64,000 bases of DNA from contig NZ_CP036291.1 of NCBI RefSeq assembly GCF_007750855.1, forward strand, positions 1,798,001-1,862,000, written 5' to 3'. The position numbers were made by a program, and so were the translations under genes. The notes under the pieces were generated by a model, which saw only the letters and a list, made by a program, of their open reading frames with translations, had not been told where the DNA came from and ran no database searches. This DNA comes from Pirellulimonas nuda (GTDB lineage: Bacteria; Planctomycetota; Planctomycetia; Pirellulales; Lacipirellulaceae). The stretch's first letter is position 1; every line of letters starts with the position of its first letter. This document shows positions 2,044-36,005 of this stretch, one piece after another.

Positions 2044-2460
2044 TTAATTAAAGTCGGTCACTTCGCGTTGCAGGTTGATCGAACGGGTCACCGTGCTCCC
2101 CAGGAAGAACCGGGGGAGGACGTACCCGTTCCGGACGTCGACCGGCACGGAAACGGTCACGTTTACCTCGGGCGTCGCGTCGGAAATGGTCGCGGGCGTC
2201 ACGGTTACCGTGCCGCCGACGAAGCCAAGGATGTCGAGCTCTCCCTGCGCAGCGGCCCGGCAATCTTCTGCGGTGGCGCCCGGCACGATCCCCCTGCGGG
2301 CCCCCTCGGTCGCCGCGATCTTGGCCGTGTGGACCAGCATGTTCGCGCGGCTGAACTCGATCGACGCAAAGGCGAACATGAACAGCAGAGGCGCCGTGAG
2401 CGCAAACTCCACGACGGTGGCGCCGCGTCGGGGCGGGTGGTGTCGGGTGCGGCTGCGCAT
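2044..2460 (-). CDS. TadE-like pseudopilin, last gene of locus A
   Basis: 138-aa protein with a short basic leader (RSRTRHHPPRRG), then ATVVEFALTAPLLFMFAFASIEF, one hydrophobic helix, and an exported C-terminal part rich in beta-branched residues (NVTVSVPV). Gly followed by a hydrophobic stretch with Glu is the TadE/TadF pseudopilin signature. Its start lies 11 bp downstream of the vWA gene that precedes it in transcription, so it is almost certainly cotranscribed. Its closest relative here is the TadE protein at 35595-36005: both begin RRGATVVEFAL. A function in an envelope assembly is inferred; no pilus motor gene is nearby. Confidence 0.85.
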   Translation of the reverse strand: MRSRTRHHPPRRGATVVEFALTAPLLFMFAFASIEFSRANMLVHTAKIAATEGARRGIVPGATAEDCRAAAQGELDILGFVGGTVTVTPATISDATPEVNVTVSVPVDVRNGYVLPRFFLGSTVTRSINLQREVTDFN

Positions 2461-2471
2461 GGGGGTGTTTC

Positions 2472-3611
2472 CTACTCGGTGAGCCGCGCGACTTGGCCGG
2501 CTAGTTCACGGAAGATCTCTTCGAGCCGGGTCGGGTCGGGGGCGTGGAAAAACTGCCCCCGGCCGACGCTGGCCACGCGCTTCATCGCGTCCTGATTGGC
2601 GAAGTCGCCGAAGGTGATGGCGTGGACGCGGATCCGCTGGTCGGCACACGCCTGGGCGGCCGCTTCGGCGCTCCCCTCGTTCTCGGCCCCGTCGGTCAGC
2701 ACGATCATGATCCTCTCGGCGCTCTGCCTAGCACGCGAGGTGTCGGTGAGCGCCTTGACCCCCTCGCGCATGCCGGCCTCGATGTTCGTGTTCCCGTTCC
2801 AGACATTTCCAGTGATCGTGGCAAGGGCGCTGTCGATCCGGGGGATGTCGCTGGTGAGCGGTTCGTCCAGCGTCGCCGCGCGGTTCGACACGCCGCAGTA
2901 TCCCGGCAGGGTCTTGCTCAAGTCGCTGGAATAGCTTGCTAGGGCCACTTTCTCATCGGCCTTGCTCCGGTCGATCGCGTCGGTGAACACCCGAACCGCC
3001 CGATCCACCGCGGCCCACCGCGTGTCCCCGAACGGCGGTTTGCAGAACCTCGTGTCGTTGGTGTACAGCCCCGACTCGGACGAGTCGATGTTCACCTTCA
3101 TCGACGTCGATCGGTCGAGCACCAAGCAGATGTCGACGTTGATGAAGCTCGCGGTGGCCGTGAACGTTGGTTCAAAGCTCGAGGCGCCCACGAGCCGGCC
3201 AAAGAACAGCGGCACCGACCCGGAGTCCGATCCGTTGGTCTTCTGCCCCAGCACGCGCACGGAGTTCGGCGGTGAGGCGCCGGACGTGAACACAAACTTG
3301 CCATTGGCGTCTGGCTCCGAACGACCGAACTCGACCTCCTCGCTCCGCACCTTCAGCGGCAGCCCGGCCACCATGTTGGCGTTGGCCACGTCTTGTGCGG
3401 CGGTCCGCGCCTGGCTCAGGCTGTCGGTGCGGGAGAGCGTGCTCGCGGCGGCCCTTGCCGCGGAGTCGGTCGCCAGGCGGAGCTGCATCCGCGTGTTCTG
3501 CATGTGGGCCACGTCTACGGCGAAGCCGAGGAACAACACCAGCACCGGCAACAGCACCGCGATCAGCGGCAGCATGGCGCCACGACGACGACGCGATTGA
3601 GGGCGGAACAT
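2472..3611 (-). CDS. TadG-like protein with vWA domain (locus A)
   Basis: 379 aa. Basic leader FRPQSRRRRG, then one membrane helix (about residues 12-34) of the TadG/Flp-assembly type, a linker to about residue 155, and a C-terminal von Willebrand A domain. The MIDAS metal site is intact: DRSTS at Asp166 and a later LTDGAEN motif. The protein should be anchored by its N-terminus with the vWA domain outside the cytoplasm. It lies between two TadE genes on the same strand (gaps of 118 and 11 nt). It is clearly homologous to the vWA protein at 34479-35504 in locus B along its whole length, including the linker motif GKFVF. The ligand is unknown. Confidence 0.87.
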   Translation of the reverse strand: MFRPQSRRRRGAMLPLIAVLLPVLVLFLGFAVDVAHMQNTRMQLRLATDSAARAAASTLSRTDSLSQARTAAQDVANANMVAGLPLKVRSEEVEFGRSEPDANGKFVFTSGASPPNSVRVLGQKTNGSDSGSVPLFFGRLVGASSFEPTFTATASFINVDICLVLDRSTSMKVNIDSSESGLYTNDTRFCKPPFGDTRWAAVDRAVRVFTDAIDRSKADEKVALASYSSDLSKTLPGYCGVSNRAATLDEPLTSDIPRIDSALATITGNVWNGNTNIEAGMREGVKALTDTSRARQSAERIMIVLTDGAENEGSAEAAAQACADQRIRVHAITFGDFANQDAMKRVASVGRGQFFHAPDPTRLEEIFRELAGQVARLTE

Positions 3612-3729
3612 ACGGCGGGCTCGAGGTGACAGGGTGAGGAGGGTGCGCCCCGGCGGGCGGCCTGCGCCGCCCGGACCCCGGTTGGTTGAGCGATGCGGGT
3701 GAGAGGAGGATGCGGTCGTGCGGCCGCCA

Positions 3730-4140
3730 TCAGCGGATGGTCACGCCCCGCGTCTCGGCCTGTGTTGAGGGGACGAAAATGACCGGTCCGAACAGGTTCG
3801 GCCCGACCGGCGCGTTGACCACCACGGTCAGCATCTCTCCCGGGGGCACGTTGGCGACGTCTACCCCCAGCGGCAGCGTGCTGACCGTCGCTTCGTGAAC
3901 ATTCATCGCCGTAAGCACCTGCCTGGCGGCGTTGCAAACCGACTCGGTGGTTGCGTTGCTCTTGGCGGCCGCGAGCGTCCCTTCGTACGCGGCGGTGGTC
4001 ACCGCGTGCTTCAGGAACAGCATGTCGCAGGCTTGGAAGGAGCCGAACACCAGCGTCACCAGCACCGGCAGGCAGACCGCGAACTCCATCGCGGCGACCC
4101 CGCGACGACGGTTGTTCGAGCTTCGAGAGGCAATCCGCAT
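3730..4140 (-). CDS. TadE-like pseudopilin (locus A)
   Basis: 136 aa from the ATG at 4140. The frame extends to a TTG at 4200, but the ATG gives the usual short basic leader (MRIASRSSNNRRRG) before VAAMEFAVCLPVLVTLVFGSF. One membrane helix is followed by an exported domain of about 100 residues. Its paralogue in locus B (34062-34472, motif IAATEFAVCLPVL) has exactly the same length, which supports this start. It sits between the two vWA genes of locus A. TadE family membership is clear from the leader, the Glu in the hydrophobic segment and the AAYEG motif after it. Confidence 0.85.
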   Translation of the reverse strand: MRIASRSSNNRRRGVAAMEFAVCLPVLVTLVFGSFQACDMLFLKHAVTTAAYEGTLAAAKSNATTESVCNAARQVLTAMNVHEATVSTLPLGVDVANVPPGEMLTVVVNAPVGPNLFGPVIFVPSTQAETRGVTIR

Positions 4141-4287
4141 ACAACAGCGCCTCGTGTCCGAAAAAGATGAGCGCCGGGCAGAGAACTGCTCGGATACCAA
4201 AAGCCTAGCTCACGATTGCCTCGCGGGTCGGCTTAGAGGTGTTTGCTCAATCGGATCGGCTTTGCGGGCCATCGACGTTTGCCGGGC

Positions 4288-4310
4288 GGGGGGCCGAAGC
4301 CCGGCCCCCC
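4288..4310 (-). terminator. GC-rich hairpin after the large vWA gene
   Basis: On the minus strand, directly after the stop of the 730-aa vWA gene, GGGGGGCC pairs with GGCCCCCC around a short GGGCTTC loop. No T-run follows, so it may attenuate rather than end transcription of the downstream TadE and vWA genes. Confidence 0.4.
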
Positions 4311-4311
4311 T

Positions 4312-6504
<2,193 letters not shown>

Positions 6505-6552
6505 GGCGCGAACGCAGGAAGGGGGTCGGTTTGAGGGGCGCCCGGCGGGCGA

Positions 6553-7038
6553 CTAGCTGCGGCCGGCGGTTTCAGCCGCGCCAGGAGATGGTTCAGCGGG
6601 GGCGGCGTGCGAGGATTGCTCTTCTCGGAGCCGAGAAAGCTCCGCGGAGATGCGGTTAAACTCGCCCGCCAGCTCAAACCAGTAGTCGCCGCCGCGGAAC
6701 GTGATGGGGGCGACCCGCTCGCCGTCGGCCAAGCGGCGCGCTTCACTACGCAGTCGACGCATGGGGCCGGCGAAGCTCAGGCTGAAGCGGAGCGCGTCGT
6801 ACAGCACCAGCGGCAGCAGCACCATCGCCGCGATCAGCGACGGCCCAAACGCCAGCATCGCCCGGTTGATCACCAGCGGCCAGCCGGCCTCTCGGCTCGA
6901 TAGCGCGGCCTGCACGCCGGCCAGCAGCATCATGGCCGCCACACAAACGCACCAATACGTCACCACACGGCACAGCAGCGCCCCCTGCAGCTTCCGGTCT
7001 ACCAACAACCGGGCGCGGAACTTTCGGTTCTTTTTCAT
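6553..7038 (-). CDS. Two-TM HAMP-like membrane protein (locus A)
   Basis: 161 aa from ATG at 7038 (MKKNRKFRARLLVDRK). Two hydrophobic helices, roughly residues 25-47 and 65-87, flank a short loop. They are followed by a HAMP-like segment (FAGPMRRLRSEARRLADGE) and a short polar tail ending in an Ala/Pro-rich stretch. There is no kinase, methyl-accepting or cyclase domain, so it is a HAMP-only protein. It is homologous to 33559-34008 in locus B, sharing the D(A)-FAGP--RLR-LADG-TFR--D-W-ELA-FNR pattern. In both loci it lies just upstream of the vWA/TadE genes. A role in sensing or scaffolding is inference only. Confidence 0.8.
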   Translation of the reverse strand: MKKNRKFRARLLVDRKLQGALLCRVVTYWCVCVAAMMLLAGVQAALSSREAGWPLVINRAMLAFGPSLIAAMVLLPLVLYDALRFSLSFAGPMRRLRSEARRLADGERVAPITFRGGDYWFELAGEFNRISAELSRLREEQSSHAAPAEPSPGAAETAGRS

Positions 7039-7098
7039 GGCTCTCTCTTGCAACGTTTGGCAACAACCATTCCGCTCACCGCCACCGATCGGAGCGGC

Positions 7099-7539
7099 CT
7101 ATTCCACCGTCTCACGCCTCATCACAGATTCTGCACGCAGCACGTGGCCGCCAATGAAGCGTGGGGTCGGCAGCCAGCTCACTTCGGCAAAGGGGATCGA
7201 CACGCTCACGGACACCGACTCGCCGTACTTCGCCGAATCGGGGGGGTCGGGCGTAACCCCGACGGTCGCCGAGTTGACCCCCGCAGAAACCAGGTAGTCG
7301 GCGACCCGCTGGGTAACCTTGTTCTTGGTGGCGCCGTCGAGCACCGCGATGCGGGCGCCCTCACGGGCGGCGTTGGTGATCACCTGCTGCACCATCGCCA
7401 TGCGGCCGAACTCGATCATCCCTAAGATGACGAGGAAGAAGACCGGCGCTACGATGGCGAACTCGGTGACCGCGGCGCCGCGGCGGCGGTCGGTCCGCCG
7501 GCCTGGGCGCCCGGCGCCGATGGTGAGATTGGTGTGCAT
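7099..7539 (-). CDS. TadE-like pseudopilin, first gene of locus A
   Basis: 146 aa from ATG at 7539 (MHTNLTIGAGRPGRRTDRRRG). The frame is open further upstream, but this start gives the basic leader before AAVTEFAIVAPVFFLVILGMIEF. Single helix, then a conserved NAAREGARIAVL segment and an exported beta-rich C-terminal domain. TadE family. It is the leading gene of the locus A operon, 60 bp upstream of the HAMP-like gene, and divergent from the ECF sigma gene. Locus B has no equivalent at this position. Confidence 0.85.
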   Translation of the reverse strand: MHTNLTIGAGRPGRRTDRRRGAAVTEFAIVAPVFFLVILGMIEFGRMAMVQQVITNAAREGARIAVLDGATKNKVTQRVADYLVSAGVNSATVGVTPDPPDSAKYGESVSVSVSIPFAEVSWLPTPRFIGGHVLRAESVMRRETVE

Positions 7540-7634: not shown

Positions 7635-7707
7635 CTTGCAATCGTCCCGGCATCGCGGGCCGAACAGGAACTTACCCAACGGCTGGATCGTCTGTACCGA
7701 TTGCAAG
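7635..7707. promoter_or_regulatory. Inverted repeat in the divergent regulatory region
   Basis: CTTGCAATCG (7635-7644) and CGATTGCAAG (7698-7707) are perfect 10-bp complements, and the pairing extends outward through GCGGCC/GGCCGC with one bulge. The arms flank 53 nt that contain the candidate ECF promoter. The position between the divergent locus A operon and the sigma gene makes it a candidate operator or 5'-leader structure. Confidence 0.45.
7667..7694 (+). promoter_or_regulatory. Candidate ECF (sigma-E-like) promoter of the sigma gene
   Basis: GGAACTT at 7667-7673 and GTCTG at 7690-7694 are separated by 16 nt, close to the GGAACTT/GTCT pattern of ECF sigma factors of the RpoE type. The predicted start is near 7701, giving a leader of about 78 nt to the ATG at 7779. 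Self-recognition by the downstream sigma factor is inferred. Confidence 0.5.
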
Positions 7708-7778
7708 GCCGCCGTCGGAGGCGGCATCCGGCCCGGATATTGTTGAACCCTTTGCTCCCCCCACAGCACTCCACTTCC

Positions 7779-8345
7779 ATGCCCGTCGCCATCCAGCCGC
7801 CGGCCGTGACCGTCCAGCCCGCCACGACCCTGACCGAACTCGTCTGCCAGCACCAGGCGGGGCTGTGGCGGTACCTGCGCTACCTTGGGGCGGCGGCCGC
7901 GGAGTCCGAAGACTTGGTGCAGGAGACCTTCCTGAGCGTGGCCCGAGACGGCTTCCAGGAGCGTTCGCCGGCAGAAACCGCCGGCTACCTGCGGACCGTC
8001 GCCCGAAACAAGCTTTTGATGCTGCGTCGCAAACAGAAGCGAGAACCCAAGACCTCAGCAATCGAGGCAGCCGACGCGGTTTGGGCCGAGGCCGCCCAAG
8101 ACGATGGCCTTAGCGGGTGGATCGGTGCGCTACGAGGCTGCGTCGCGCAGCTCGAAGGTCGCGCCCGTCAGGCGGTTGAGATGTGCTACCGAGAGAACGC
8201 GGGCCGCGACGCGATTGCCGAAGCGCTCGACATGAAGCCAGACGGCGTGAAGACGCTGCTCCGTCGCACTCGGGCGCTGCTCAAAGCGTGCGTGGAACGA
8301 CGTTTAACCACGGATGACACGGGCGGCACGGATACAGCACGGTAG
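7779..8345 (+). CDS. ECF RNA polymerase sigma factor
   Basis: 188 aa from ATG at 7779. Region 2 is seen in LVCQHQAGLWRYLRYLG and AESEDLVQETFLSVAR, with GYLRTVARNKLLMLRRK at its end. Region 4 is a helix-turn-helix (MCYRENAGRDAIAEALDMKPDGVKTLLRRTRALLKAC). Spacing is typical of the ECF group. The C-terminal tail (LTTDDTGGTDTAR) is encoded by a copy of the dispersed ACCACGGAT repeat, and the stop overlaps the start of another inverted repeat. The gene downstream encodes a membrane vWA protein whose N-terminus may act as the anti-sigma partner. Which ECF subgroup it belongs to cannot be told by eye. Confidence 0.9.
   Translation: MPVAIQPPAVTVQPATTLTELVCQHQAGLWRYLRYLGAAAAESEDLVQETFLSVARDGFQERSPAETAGYLRTVARNKLLMLRRKQKREPKTSAIEAADAVWAEAAQDDGLSGWIGALRGCVAQLEGRARQAVEMCYRENAGRDAIAEALDMKPDGVKTLLRRTRALLKACVERRLTTDDTGGTDTAR
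8304..8333 (+). repeat. ACCACGGAT-family repeat inside the sigma gene end
   Basis: TTAACCACGGATGACACGGG plus a further CACGGAT matches the outer arm of the composite palindrome at 12483-12509. It lies in frame within the last codons of the sigma factor gene and contributes its C-terminal tail. Confidence 0.6.
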
Positions 8346-8408
8346 GTCAGGCTGTGCCTGACACGGCCCCGCGAAACCAGCCACAACGTCAGGCACAGCC
8401 TGACCTAC
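8342..8408. repeat. Perfect 21-bp inverted repeat between sigma and vWA genes
   Basis: The 21-nt arm at 8342-8362 (starting GTAGGTCAGGCTGTGCC) is perfectly complementary to 8388-8408 around a 25-nt loop. It holds the sigma gene stop codon at 8343-8345 and ends 9 bp before the vWA gene start, so it would fold in the intercistronic RNA and could modulate the second gene. Confidence 0.75.
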
Positions 8409-8417
8409 GAGCCAGCC

Positions 8418-10721
8418 ATGAACGACGACCTTACACCCGACCGCGACGACCTAGCCGACCGGCTGGTTGACCTGGCGCTCGCCGAAGCGATTGGTGGGCA
8501 GTCTCCCCCCGACTTGTCCGACCGCATCGCCGCCCGCTGGGCGGAGGAGGCGGCTTCTCTATCCTTGTCCGCGGAGCACGACGCGATGGAAATGCAACCC
8601 AAAACACGGTGGCCCCGGTACGCGGCGTGGGGCGTGGCGGCGACGCTGCTGTTGGCTGTCGGTGTGAGCTTAAAGCTATCGGATGGCGAAGCGCCGCGCG
8701 ATGTTGCTCTGAAATTCACCCCGGTCGAGACGTCGGAAATCGAATCACCGGAAGACAAGCAGCGGATATGGATGCAACGCAGCGTTCCAATTGATCAGGA
8801 AGAGAAGGCTCGGGTCATCGAAGCCCATGTGGCTGCTGCGCGGGCAAATGCGAACGGCGACGAGTCTACAAGTGCGAGTGCCGGAGACGTCTCGGTGGTC
8901 TATCCGGATCCGGAAGTGTGGGAGGACCTGACGCGGAGGCGGAAGAAATTCGCAAGCGTAGATCTTGAGAAGCAAGCGGCGGTGCGGGCGGCTAGGCAAA
9001 ATTCTTCAACGGTCCGCGGCTTCGACATCAAAGCGAACGGTGGTCAGTCGCTTCCATCGCCGTACTACCTCCAAGATGACGTTCAGTACCACGCCGGCGT
9101 AGAATTTGAAGGTTTGGACCTTGGCACTCGCATGATGGTCACCCCACGCATCATCATCGCGGGGCCAACCGGGATTCACGATCGAAGAATTGAGGACCTC
9201 TCTGAGATTGAAGGCCAAGGCCCCGACGCCGGCGGCGACAAGTACGACCGCATCTACGAGAACCCGTTCATGGAAGCGGTCGGCGAGCGGGCGGTCAGCA
9301 CGTTCAGTATCGACGTCGATACCGCCAGCTACGCCAACGTCCGACAGATGCTGCTGGAGGGTGGGCGGCTGCCGCCGCCCGATGCGGTGCGGCTTGAGGA
9401 GTTCGTGAACTACTTTGGGTACGACTATTCAGGGCCAGAGGTTGATTCCGAGGCTGCCCCCTCCCCCGGCCCCTCCCCCCAGGGGGGGAGGGGAGACGTT
9501 CCCTTTGCTTCGCACATCGAAGTCGCCGGCTGCCCGTGGGCGCCCACGCACCGGTTGGTGCGGATCGGCTTGAAGGGCCGCGAGCTGGCGGCCGACAAGC
9601 GGCCGCTGTCGAACCTAGTGTTTCTGATTGATGTCTCCGGTTCGATGCAGGACTCCAACAAGCTGCCGCTGGTGGTTGAGGGGTTCAAGGCGCTCGTCCG
9701 CGAGCTAGGCGAGAACGACCGCGTAGCGATCGTGGTCTACGCGTCCAGCGAGGGGCTGGCGCTCGACAGCACCCCGGGCGATCAGCAGGACAAGATCCTG
9801 GCGGCGCTCGGTCAGTTGGCCGCGGGAGGCTCGACGGCGGGTGGCGCCGGTATCGAACTCGCCTACAAAATCGCCGAGGACCACAAGATCGCCGGCGGCT
9901 GCAACCGCGTGATCCTCTGCACCGACGGCGATTTCAACGTCGGCACCACCAGCACGGCCGCTTTGCAGCGGATGGTCGAGGAGAAGGCCAAAGAGACCGG
10001 CGTATTCCTCTCAGTCTGCGGCTTCGGCCGCGGGAACCTGAACGACGCGATGATGGAGACCGTCTCCAACAAGGGCAATGGCAGCTACTACTACGTCGAC
10101 GGCATGCGAGAGGCCCGCCGGGTGTTCGTCGATGGCCTTACCGGCACGCTGGTCACCATCGCCAAGGACGTGAAGATCCAGGTCGAGTTCAACCCGGCCC
10201 AAGTCGCCGGCTACCGCCTGCTGGGCTACGAGAACCGTATGCTCCGCACCGAAGACTTTAACGACGACACAAAGGACGCCGGCGAGATCGGCGCGGGGCA
10301 CACCGTCACCGCGCTCTACGAGATCGTGCCCACTGGTGCGAGCGTCCCCGCCGGCGAGGTAGACGAGCTCAAGTACCAACCCAAAAAGCCAGAGGCCCCC
10401 GCTGACGCGGGCGGCAAACCGAGCGACGAGCTACTCACCCTGAAGATGCGCTACAAGCAGCCCGAGAGCGACACGAGCAGCAAGCTCGAATGGGCGGTCA
10501 AGGACGGAGGCAACAGCTTCGCCGAGGCGTCGAAGTACACGCAGTTCGCCGCCGCGGTGGCGTCGTTCGGGATGCTGCTAAGGGGATCGGAGTACGCGGG
10601 GGACGCCACCCTCGACGCCGTGCTAGAGATCGCTGCGAGTGCGACGGGTGACGATCCCAAGGGCGAACGTGCAGAGTTCCTGGACATCGTGCGCGCTGCA
10701 AAACGCATCAAGGCCGAGTAG
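8418..10721 (+). CDS. Membrane-anchored YfbK-type vWA protein paired with ECF sigma
   Basis: 767 aa. The N-terminal 65 residues are acidic and helical and resemble the cytoplasmic part of an anti-sigma factor. One membrane helix follows (about residues 67-87, YAAWGVAATLLLAVGVSLKL), then a linker. Next come a YfbK-like N-terminal module (FSIDVDTASYANVRQML, EEFVNYFGYDY), a vWA domain with intact MIDAS (IDVSGSM, Asp405; LCTDGDFNVG) and a C-terminal DUF3520-like region (KDVKIQVEFNPAQVAGYRLLGYENR). Residues about 347-359 (APSPGPSPQGGRG) look like an in-frame insertion of a dispersed repeat. The gene follows the ECF sigma gene after an inverted repeat, which suggests it senses or transduces an envelope signal; the anti-sigma role is inference. 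Confidence 0.85.
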   Translation: MNDDLTPDRDDLADRLVDLALAEAIGGQSPPDLSDRIAARWAEEAASLSLSAEHDAMEMQPKTRWPRYAAWGVAATLLLAVGVSLKLSDGEAPRDVALKFTPVETSEIESPEDKQRIWMQRSVPIDQEEKARVIEAHVAAARANANGDESTSASAGDVSVVYPDPEVWEDLTRRRKKFASVDLEKQAAVRAARQNSSTVRGFDIKANGGQSLPSPYYLQDDVQYHAGVEFEGLDLGTRMMVTPRIIIAGPTGIHDRRIEDLSEIEGQGPDAGGDKYDRIYENPFMEAVGERAVSTFSIDVDTASYANVRQMLLEGGRLPPPDAVRLEEFVNYFGYDYSGPEVDSEAAPSPGPSPQGGRGDVPFASHIEVAGCPWAPTHRLVRIGLKGRELAADKRPLSNLVFLIDVSGSMQDSNKLPLVVEGFKALVRELGENDRVAIVVYASSEGLALDSTPGDQQDKILAALGQLAAGGSTAGGAGIELAYKIAEDHKIAGGCNRVILCTDGDFNVGTTSTAALQRMVEEKAKETGVFLSVCGFGRGNLNDAMMETVSNKGNGSYYYVDGMREARRVFVDGLTGTLVTIAKDVKIQVEFNPAQVAGYRLLGYENRMLRTEDFNDDTKDAGEIGAGHTVTALYEIVPTGASVPAGEVDELKYQPKKPEAPADAGGKPSDELLTLKMRYKQPESDTSSKLEWAVKDGGNSFAEASKYTQFAAAVASFGMLLRGSEYAGDATLDAVLEIAASATGDDPKGERAEFLDIVRAAKRIKAE
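9456..9494 (+). repeat. In-frame G/C-tract repeat within the vWA gene
   Basis: CCCCTCCCCCGGCCCCTCCC followed by CCCAGGGGGGGAGGGG is a palindromic C/G-tract element. The same type flanks 10737-10893. Here it is read in frame as PSPGPSPQGGRG inside the coding region. Confidence 0.65.
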
Positions 10722-33558: not shown

Positions 33559-34008
33559 ATGGCGCGCAACAACCGCAAACGTGAGTACATCGATCCGGCT
33601 GTCCAGGGCGCCCTGATGCGCCGCATGGTGCTTCATTGGCTCGCCTTTACCGTGGTCGCCGGAGGTCTTGCGGTGCTCCTGCAGTGGATGCAGGACCCGT
33701 TCGCTTCGGTCGCCGCCACCTTTCAGCAGGCCTGGTGGTCGTACGGGGCCGTGTTGCTGCTGTTGATCTGCCTGATGCCGGTGTTCGTTTACGACGCGGT
33801 CAAGCTCAGCAATCGGTTCGCCGGTCCGGTGCAGCGGCTCCGCGTCGCCCTGCGAGATCTGGCCGACGGCAAGGGCTCGACCACGCTTACGTTCCGGGAC
33901 GACGACTTCTGGAAAGAGCTAGCCAGCGACTTCAACCGGGTGGCTGAGCGTCTGGAACGGCAAGAACGGAACGATACGGCCGATTCCCCCGACGCCGTCG
34001 GCGTCTAG
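33559..34008 (+). CDS. Two-TM HAMP-like membrane protein (locus B)
   Basis: 149 aa from ATG at 33559 (MARNNRKREYIDPAVQGALM). Two membrane helices (about residues 23-43 and 59-81) and a HAMP-like segment (RFAGPVQRLRVALRDLADGK ... LTFRDDDFWKELASDFNRV), then a short acidic tail. Homologous to 6553-7038 in locus A. First gene of locus B; the next gene follows after 53 nt. No output domain, so signalling would need a partner. Confidence 0.82.
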   Translation: MARNNRKREYIDPAVQGALMRRMVLHWLAFTVVAGGLAVLLQWMQDPFASVAATFQQAWWSYGAVLLLLICLMPVFVYDAVKLSNRFAGPVQRLRVALRDLADGKGSTTLTFRDDDFWKELASDFNRVAERLERQERNDTADSPDAVGV

Positions 34009-34061
34009 GGCCGTCCGCCCGCGGACCTCAGTTATTGCCCCTTGCCGAGCCGAGAAAGAAC

Positions 34062-34472
34062 GTGAAGCACCCAATCCGCCAAATCAGGTCGGGCCGTCGC
34101 GGGATCGCGGCGACCGAGTTCGCCGTGTGCCTGCCGGTGCTGATGCTGCTGCTGCTGGGGATGCTAGAGGCCTGCTCGATGATCTTCATCAAGCAGTCGC
34201 TAGCCAGCGCCGCCTACGAGGGCGCCCATACAGCGGTCGCCCCGGGGGCGACCGCCACCGACGTGCGCCGCGCGTGCCTCGACCTGCTCACCGACCGCCG
34301 CGTCCGCGGTGCGAGCGTCAGCGTGCTGCCCGGCGACCCCCTTGGGGTACCCGAAGGGCAGTTCATGGAAGTGCACGTGTCCGCCGGAACCGACGCCAAC
34401 AGCCTGCTCCCGCTGCGGTTCTTCCGTGGACGCACGCTCACGGCTTCTGCATCGATGATGAAGGAAATCTGA
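34062..34472 (+). CDS. TadE-like pseudopilin (locus B)
   Basis: 136 aa from GTG at 34062, which is preceded by a purine-rich GAGAAAGA. An in-frame TTG at 34035 would add nine residues. The GTG start gives the same length as its locus A paralogue (3730-4140). Leader VKHPIRQIRSGRRG, then IAATEFAVCLPVLMLLLLGML, the pseudopilin helix with Glu, the AAYEGAH motif and an exported domain. Six nt upstream of the vWA gene. Confidence 0.85.
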   Translation: MKHPIRQIRSGRRGIAATEFAVCLPVLMLLLLGMLEACSMIFIKQSLASAAYEGAHTAVAPGATATDVRRACLDLLTDRRVRGASVSVLPGDPLGVPEGQFMEVHVSAGTDANSLLPLRFFRGRTLTASASMMKEI

Positions 34473-34478
34473 TCGCCC

Positions 34479-35504
34479 ATGACGCAAAGCCGCCCCCCAC
34501 AACCGCGGCGCCGTGGCGCCATCCTGGTGCTCGTCGCGCTCCTGCTTCCCGCCTTCGCGATGATGGCGGCGTTTGCGATCGACGTCGCCTGGATGCAATT
34601 GGTGCGCACCGAGCTGCGGACGGCAACCGACGCCGCGTCGCGCGCCGGCGCCAAGACGCTGTCCCTGCAACAGAACGAGGCCCTGGCGCGCACCGCCGCG
34701 ATCGACGCCGCGAGCCGCAACGCCGTGGCGGGATCGCCGATGCAACTGGCGCCGGCCGACGTGCAGTTTGGGTCGAGCGTGCAGAGCGGCAGCGGGAAGT
34801 TTGTGTTTTCCGCAGGGGGGAGGCCGCTCAACGCCGTGCACGTCGACGGCCGCCGCACGGCGGGCTCGCCGGGCGGGCCGGTCGACCTGTTCTTCGGCAG
34901 TCTGATCGGACAACGCACGTTCGAACCCGCTCACGCCGCCACCTCCACCACCCTCGACCGCGATATCTGTTTGGTGCTCGACCGGTCTGGATCGATGAGC
35001 GGCCAGAAGATCCGCGACCTCAAGACGGCCGTGGCGGCGTTCCTGGCCGAGCTCAACCTGACGTTCCCGCGTGAGCAAGTGGCGCTCGTGAGCTACTCAA
35101 CGACTTCGCGGATCGATCAGCAACTCACCTTCGATTACGCCGCTATCCGCAGCGACGTGAACGCCTTCAACGCCAGCGGCTTCACCGCGATCGGCCTCGC
35201 GCTGCAGGACGGGCTGCGGGCGATCGAGGGGCCGTCTCGGCGTCCCTTTGCGTTGCCGACAGTCGTCCTGATGACAGACGGCAACCACAACACCGGCGTG
35301 GAGCCCATCGTGCCGGCGCGTGTCGCTTCGAGTCGCGACATCACGGTCCACACGGTCACGTTCGGCGGCGACGCCGATTTTGCGCGGATGCGGGCCGTGG
35401 CCAACGAGACGGGTGGGCGGCACTTCCACGCGGCGACCGGCGCCGACCTGACCAACGTATTCCGCGAGATCGCCCGCACGCTGCCCGTACTGATGACCGA
35501 GTAG
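34479..35504 (+). CDS. TadG-like protein with vWA domain (locus B)
   Basis: 341 aa. Leader QSRPPQPRRRG and a TadG-type helix (AILVLVALLLPAFAMMAAFA), then a linker and a vWA domain with MIDAS LVLDRSGSM (Asp168) and LMTDGNHNTG. Full-length homologue of 2472-3611; it is shorter mainly in the region after the MIDAS. Predicted to be anchored with the vWA domain outside. Immediately downstream of the TadE gene (6-nt gap), and separated from the following TadE gene by an inverted repeat. Confidence 0.88.
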   Translation: MTQSRPPQPRRRGAILVLVALLLPAFAMMAAFAIDVAWMQLVRTELRTATDAASRAGAKTLSLQQNEALARTAAIDAASRNAVAGSPMQLAPADVQFGSSVQSGSGKFVFSAGGRPLNAVHVDGRRTAGSPGGPVDLFFGSLIGQRTFEPAHAATSTTLDRDICLVLDRSGSMSGQKIRDLKTAVAAFLAELNLTFPREQVALVSYSTTSRIDQQLTFDYAAIRSDVNAFNASGFTAIGLALQDGLRAIEGPSRRPFALPTVVLMTDGNHNTGVEPIVPARVASSRDITVHTVTFGGDADFARMRAVANETGGRHFHAATGADLTNVFREIARTLPVLMTE

Positions 35505-35509
35505 CGCGC

Positions 35510-35576
35510 GGCAGGGCCCGCCTGCCGTGCGTTGGATCCCTACAGTTTGCCCCAAAAACGGCAGGCGGCGCCTGCC
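35510..35576. repeat. GGCAGGSCC inverted repeat inside locus B
   Basis: GGCAGGGCCCGCCTGCCGT (35510-35528) and ACGGCAGGCGGCGCCTGCC (35558-35576) are complements with two mismatches around a 29-nt loop. It separates the vWA gene from the last TadE gene. At the same place in locus A there are only 11 nt, so this looks like an insertion after duplication. Confidence 0.65.
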
Positions 35577-35594
35577 CTACCCGTCGGAACACCC

Positions 35595-36005
35595 ATGCAC
35601 CGCAACCCCGGAAAGAAAGATCGACGCGGCGCCACGGTGGTTGAGTTTGCGTTGGTGGCGCCGGTCTTCTTCTTGGTCATCCTGGCGATGTTCGAGTTTA
35701 GTTGGTTGAACGTCGTGCGACACACGGCGGACAACGCCGCCTACGAGGCGGCTCGTAAGGCGATTGTGCCGGGCGCCGACGCCAGCGAGGCGACGGACGA
35801 GGCGACGCGGATCCTGCGGGCAATCGGCGCGCGCGGGGCGCGGATCGCCGTCGATCCGCCCACCATCACCCCCGAGACGCGCGAAGTGCGGGTGACGATC
35901 GACATCCCGATGCGGGACAACGCGATCGCCTTTCCAAAATTTACGGGCGCCCTGGTCATGCACGCCGAGTCGACGCTGCGGACCGAGCGGGTCTCCACCC
36001 GCTGA
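35595..36005 (+). CDS. TadE-like pseudopilin, last gene of locus B
   Basis: 136 aa from ATG at 35595 (MHRNPGKKDRRG leader), then ATVVEFALVAPVFFLVILAMFEF, one helix with the conserved Glu, NAAYEAARKAIVPGADASEA and a beta-rich exported part ending in HAESTLRTERVSTR. It corresponds to 2044-2460 of locus A by sequence and by position after the vWA gene. Confidence 0.86.
   Translation: MHRNPGKKDRRGATVVEFALVAPVFFLVILAMFEFSWLNVVRHTADNAAYEAARKAIVPGADASEATDEATRILRAIGARGARIAVDPPTITPETREVRVTIDIPMRDNAIAFPKFTGALVMHAESTLRTERVSTR

Follow-up and report, generated by a model that had tools for sequence, protein, structure and literature searches.

How does a set of genes for pilus-tip-like proteins work when no gene for a motor ATPase stands beside it? 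This question is raised by a 64-kb stretch of DNA (the window, positions 1,798,001-1,862,000 of the 6.62 Mb single-contig genome of Pirellulimonas nuda), which contains two loci, each made of co-directional genes. Locus A (2044-7539, minus strand) encodes, in order of transcription, a TadE, a HAMP-like protein, a giant vWA protein, a second TadE, a shorter vWA protein and a third TadE. Locus B (33559-36005, plus strand) encodes a HAMP-like protein, a TadE, a vWA protein and a TadE. All ten genes named in the original prediction, which had taken the two loci for a self-contained surface module, were found; the order it gave is the transcription order of A, and its span of 2044-7539 is correct with the start of the first gene at the ATG at 7539. 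The canonical tad operon is a single locus in which TadE, TadF and TadG lie beside TadA, TadB and TadC. Here the same component families occur, but the motor genes lie far along the chromosome from those for the minor pilins. The arrangement is new although its kind is known, and the HAMP-like, TadE, vWA, TadE module is real and conserved: 23 of the 28 family genomes, P. nuda among them, have the four-gene order, whose absence from relatives would have counted against the original prediction. We give a probability of about 0.5 to the reading that A and B are alternative tip complexes for a Tad pilus with a remote motor, and that the HAMP-like protein is an inner-membrane accessory which may relay the state of the tip to the cytoplasm.

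The genome has one Tad motor cluster, located 2.6 Mb from A and B, which encodes Flp, TadV, RcpC, secretin, TadZ, TadA, TadB, TadC and TadD (the match of the Flp pilin is one bit under the Pfam cut-off). No TadE, TadF or TadG was detected beside it. A search with the TadA protein gave a single match in its own genome (E<=1e-60). On the other side, TadE matches (E<=0.001) were found at three places in the genome only, namely A, B and a further locus (C, at 0.697 Mb; L001, 11805-14701), which holds two TadE genes and a giant vWA gene of 626 residues. The same separation is observed in the family set of 28 genomes. TadA of this motor is present in all 28, with best matches 82-100% identical, and in the 21 motor clusters examined (own and 20 others) no TadE, TadG or HAMP match was found in 16-20 kb; nearness of TadE to a motor was judged from fetched clusters and not from the genome-wide TadE table. 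Genome G013, which has no HAMP-like gene, has only two TadE matches, which adjoin a giant vWA gene on a different contig from its TadA, and thus its motor has no detected minor pilins other than these distant ones. Taken together, the 21 clusters and G013 indicate that the minor pilins of this motor are remote, and that in P. nuda it has A, B and C at its disposal. It was also observed that TadC and TadD of the motor cluster are separated by a gene (L013, 6192-6806) for a secreted-looking protein of 204 aa, which has no Pfam family at E<=0.01. Among eight motor clusters of other families in the order, a single TadE lies between TadV and RcpC in four and none was seen in the other four, of which two show only TadA, TadB and TadC as recognised genes.

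As to the claim that motor genes are not adjacent, no T2SSE ATPase and no A24 prepilin peptidase match was found inside the window, where TadB/C and secretin were not separately searched for. This lack, along with the presence of several dispersed copies, would suit modules that work without any Tad motor, with TadE and vWA proteins as membrane-anchored adhesins. The self-contained character of the module finds no support, however, in the search for a motor elsewhere in the genome, as the conserved cluster with TadA in every family genome has no minor pilins detected beside it, those detected for the G013 motor are distant, and the TadE proteins conserve a prepilin-type site with its Glu5. A motorless module is therefore very unlikely, and this reading was rejected. 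Another filament of the genome, a type IVa pilus or a type II secretion system, could in principle be the one that is served, since there are ten PF00437 (T2SSE) ATPase matches over the cut-off, of which one, at 4.445 Mb, is TadA, and a second A24 peptidase is present. TadE and TadG are, however, Tad-family proteins, and in the second, divergent Tad clusters TadE-TadE-TadG directly follow TadC in all four that were fetched, which makes service to a filament other than the Tad pilus improbable.

The TadE proteins have the marks of minor pilins. In locus A these are A1 (7099-7539; 64.9 bits for Pfam TadE, site RRG^AAVTEF with Glu5), A4 (3730-4140, start at ATG 4140, of the first-TadE type with VAAMEFAVCLP) and A6 (2044-2460, of the second-TadE type with ATVVEFALTAP). 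In locus B they are B2 (34062-34472, GTG start at 34062 within a longer open reading frame from 34035, IAATEFAVCLP) and B4 (35595-36005, ATG start at 35595 within a longer frame from 35532, ATVVEFALVAP). All five exceed the Pfam cut-off for TadE, and all five carry a prepilin peptidase-type site, preceded by Gly or Ala, with Glu at position 5. The same site with Glu5 was seen in 27/27 first TadE proteins and 33/33 second TadE proteins of the family (30 by pattern and 3 by eye). The length of 136 aa noted for the middle TadE of both loci depends on the choice of start, which for A4, B2 and B4 is the one given above.

The vWA proteins are A3 (4312-6504), A5 (2472-3611) and B3 (34479-35504), in all of which Tad, Tad_C and VWA exceed the Pfam cut-offs; a scan with NCBIfam gave weak partial matches only. 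A5 combines a TadG-like N-terminus with a vWA domain. In the TadG-type vWA protein Leu replaces Glu at position 5 (in two TadG proteins from the wider order, L059 and L065, this residue is Gln and not Leu), and the residues of the metal ion-dependent adhesion site (MIDAS; DxSxS, T, D) are invariant or nearly so in an alignment of 26 rows. B3, which also has the MIDAS residues, is predicted to be a TadG-like pilin stalk carrying a vWA domain, and pilus-tip proteins are among its best matches to solved structures. The minor pilin PilB of S. sanguinis (7b7p) and the tip protein Mfa5 of P. gingivalis (6tnj) match essentially the vWA part of B3, and their pili belong to other classes than Tad. A3 is a giant TadG/CpaL-like protein in which a long insert interrupts the vWA domain, with DLSGS at residue 164 and TDG at 618. 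The insert contains a run of 21 Asp (residues 321-341, window 5482-5544) between two poly-Pro runs. The related giant protein of L152 has a Pro/Thr-rich linker there, without the Asp run.

From these features a working of the system can be proposed. Prepilin peptidase would cut both TadE proteins of a cassette, which would then stack via Glu5, and the TadG-type vWA protein, with Leu for Glu, would sit at the end of the filament as a cap, its vWA domain facing out. From there it would prime growth of the pilus by the remote TadA/B/C motor and bind targets via the MIDAS metal. An adhesin function, as put forward originally, is plausible. The membrane helices of the HAMP-like protein would provide a lateral coupling to the tip or to the platform, before extension or after retraction. 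We infer that the cassette proteins are located at the tip, that one motor serves several tips, here A, B and C all three, and that the HAMP-like protein acts as a relay.

The HAMP-like protein is the novel element beside the known Tad tip components. A2 (6553-7038) and B1 (33559-34008) each have two predicted transmembrane segments and match PF00672 below the Pfam cut-off of 25 bits, with 16.4 bits (E 0.012) and 15.5-16.5 bits (E 0.011-0.022), respectively. Among 42 relatives, 27 match PF00672 at E<=0.05, the best at 1.2e-5. The AlphaFold2 monomer of B1 (predicted local distance difference test score 90.4) is predicted to have a transmembrane helix followed by a helix-connector-helix as in the HAMP fold, and it matches the HAMP domain of VicK over residues 87-149. 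Compared with VicK (4i5s) and Aer2 (3lnr), the helix-connector-helix superposes over these residues at about 2 Å. The HAMP domains of VicK and Aer2 are, however, parts of larger receptors, whereas the HAMP-like protein has two transmembrane segments before and no recognised domain after; no sensor or output domain was recognised. Foldseek with the model gave nothing at E<=0.001, and the family profile gave five weak matches to sequences of solved structures (E 0.12-0.85), two of which are chemoreceptors matched in the right region. The predicted topology has two membrane helices with an outside loop of about 20 residues and the HAMP-like helix pair inside. The protein is predicted to be a planctomycete inner-membrane accessory.

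The gene is present in 26 of the 28 family genomes, and its surroundings vary. All 39 strong HAMP loci of the family outside the own genome were fetched, with reading frames taken from stop to stop and with vWA frames over 600-650 aa, which are YfbK-like, excluded from cassette orders. HAMP-TadE-vWA-TadE was found at 25 of them, and L156 has the same order with the vWA frame in two pieces and was counted apart. At six loci (L154, L158, L159, L160, L164 and L165) HAMP is followed, after about 1 kb, by a TadG-type protein of a different kind and then TadE. The intervening stretch was read in L159 alone, where it contains a gene of 215 aa with no Pfam family; the TadG-type protein there matches Tad and Tad_C but not VWA. 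One locus has TadE-HAMP-giant vWA. HAMP stands alone at five, and L163, where it lies at a contig end, was not counted as alone. Among 80 named HAMP loci, 63 have at least 3.5 kb downstream; HAMP is linked to tip genes in 28 of these and unlinked in 35, the other 17 loci being too short to score. Across the scored rows of a tree of 89 HAMP-like sequences, no fewer than 13 switches between the linked and the solitary state are required.

Several of these observations weigh against a strict partnership of HAMP and tip. Cassettes without HAMP exist (nine TadE-vWA-TadE, five TadE-TadE-giant vWA and one TadE-TadE-TadG-type; these 15 loci were chosen for TadE without HAMP and give existence, not frequency), and solitary HAMP genes exist too, so HAMP as an obligatory partner of the cassette was rejected. 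The order of locus C, TadE-TadE-giant vWA, recurs in a further five genomes of the family (L206-L210), among them the two without HAMP, and may be the core tip set. The slot of locus A in genome G005 has HAMP and no other cassette gene, as has the slot of locus B in B. hoheduenensis (L149 = L027), where the same beta-lactamase-fold gene follows. This suggests that HAMP can persist after loss of its cassette and may act in trans, and it argues against one-to-one pairing of HAMP and cassette. These HAMP-free cassettes and HAMP-alone slots, the absence of an output domain and the sub-threshold score would all fit a HAMP-like protein that takes part in assembly or stability only, or is a passenger, and carries no signal, while the cassettes remain Tad tip sets with a remote motor. 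Such a silent role is a serious possibility, though not the one we favour. Against it stand the company that HAMP keeps with three cassette architectures and the presence of the motor ATPase TadA in 79 of the 80 genomes of the order that carry HAMP. The co-occurrence of HAMP and TadA was not retained as independent evidence, since its p value of 1e-14 over 147 genomes becomes 0.029 without the one family that has neither gene and without the 17 unlisted genomes. The sole HAMP-positive genome without TadA (G037, E 1e-100) has three HAMP copies and about 430 contigs.

A stronger version of the relay reading would make the HAMP-like protein the missing inner-membrane receptor of a Tad pilus, which, lacking a sensor domain itself, would sense a docked or strained tip via its membrane helices and convert contact to a cytoplasmic signal. 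We consider this receptor unlikely, and if it were true, a tip cassette would bring its own adhesin plus its own signal relay. A role of HAMP in Tad surface sensing is an attractive hypothesis.

The relation between A and B was examined by pairwise alignments scored against 100 shuffles per pair. The members pair up as predicted, far above shuffled controls: 51/147 identical residues for the HAMP-like pair A2-B1 (z 36), 50/115 for the TadE pair A4-B2 (z 35), 140/327 for the vWA pair A5-B3 (z 84) and 50/107 for the TadE pair A6-B4 (z 31). Crosswise, these TadE proteins match less well (A4-B4 z 12, A6-B2 z 21). The extra TadE of locus A, A1, has 58/133 identical residues with B4 (z 41) and 50/124 with B2 (z 37), and as it matches both as well or better, the pairing of TadE is not strictly reciprocal. 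The giant A3 resembles A5 and B3 over the N-terminal 170 residues only.

It had been proposed that A is B with an extra TadE and an extra giant vWA gene. The extra genes are present, but the HAMP and vWA genes of A group with different cassettes. A2 groups with the HAMP of the TadE-HAMP-giant vWA cassette of genome G026 (L152; support 98), and A5 falls with the vWA genes of HAMP-TadE-vWA-TadE cassettes in G026, G025 and G006 (L161, L162 and L153; support 99-100). The latter three share the neighbours of locus A, with an MqnC-like gene on one side and an extracytoplasmic function (ECF) sigma factor and a YfbK-like vWA gene on the other. The idea that A is B duplicated as one unit was rejected: the HAMP and vWA genes of A do not share their closest relatives, and in three other genomes the slot of A is occupied by HAMP-TadE-vWA-TadE. 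On these groupings two cassettes seem to have fused in locus A; most simply, a TadE-HAMP-giant vWA cassette would have entered the slot, with its HAMP taking the place of the resident one.

The ECF sigma factor and the YfbK-type vWA protein (YfbK_C, vWF_A and VWA) beside locus A lie at 7701-10721 of the window, and the latter has a transmembrane-like stretch early in the chain. The pair also adjoins the slot of locus A in four further genomes (L153, L157, L161 and L162). It is possibly a sigma/anti-sigma-like pair, and a possible output route for surface sensing.

The HAMP-like, TadE, vWA, TadE module was not found described in the open-licence literature searched, by titles and abstract starts. 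A survey, in its accessible part, terms multi-locus Tad systems 'very rare' (PMC6668835), and a tad cluster receives a brief mention in the available text of a study of freshwater Planctomycetes (PMC6461901). With one fixed Tad motor and several dispersed tip cassettes, such a system would be missed by locus-based annotation. How surface contact is transmitted across the envelope by Tad pili is poorly understood, as stated in the available part of a Caulobacter study (PMC12607857). A HAMP-like protein that accompanies tip operons in many Pirellulales offers a tangible candidate for that relay, one that can be removed, and the cassettes give a natural set of planctomycete vWA tips for comparison.

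The best overall reading, by analogy, is that of a split Tad system with dispersed, interchangeable tip cassettes resembling those of Myxococcus Kil and Caulobacter CpaL. As far as the accessible text of the Caulobacter study goes (PMC12607857), CpaJ-CpaK-CpaL share with the present cassettes a pilin-like stalk joined to a vWA domain with MIDAS and two small minor pilins as partners of the tip protein. The vWA domain of CpaL is split by an insert, as in A3, whereas those of A5 and B3 are unsplit and shorter; that text describes one such set in Caulobacter, and no HAMP-like partner. In Myxococcus xanthus several three-protein TadE/F/G-like tip sets (KilL/M/N) serve one Tad-type pilus, according to the accessible part of the report (PMC12075869). 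There one tip set sits in a kil cluster, whereas none is beside the motor here; the tip domain described in that part (KilN4) has no known fold, whereas here it is vWA; and the same text describes no HAMP-like partner gene.

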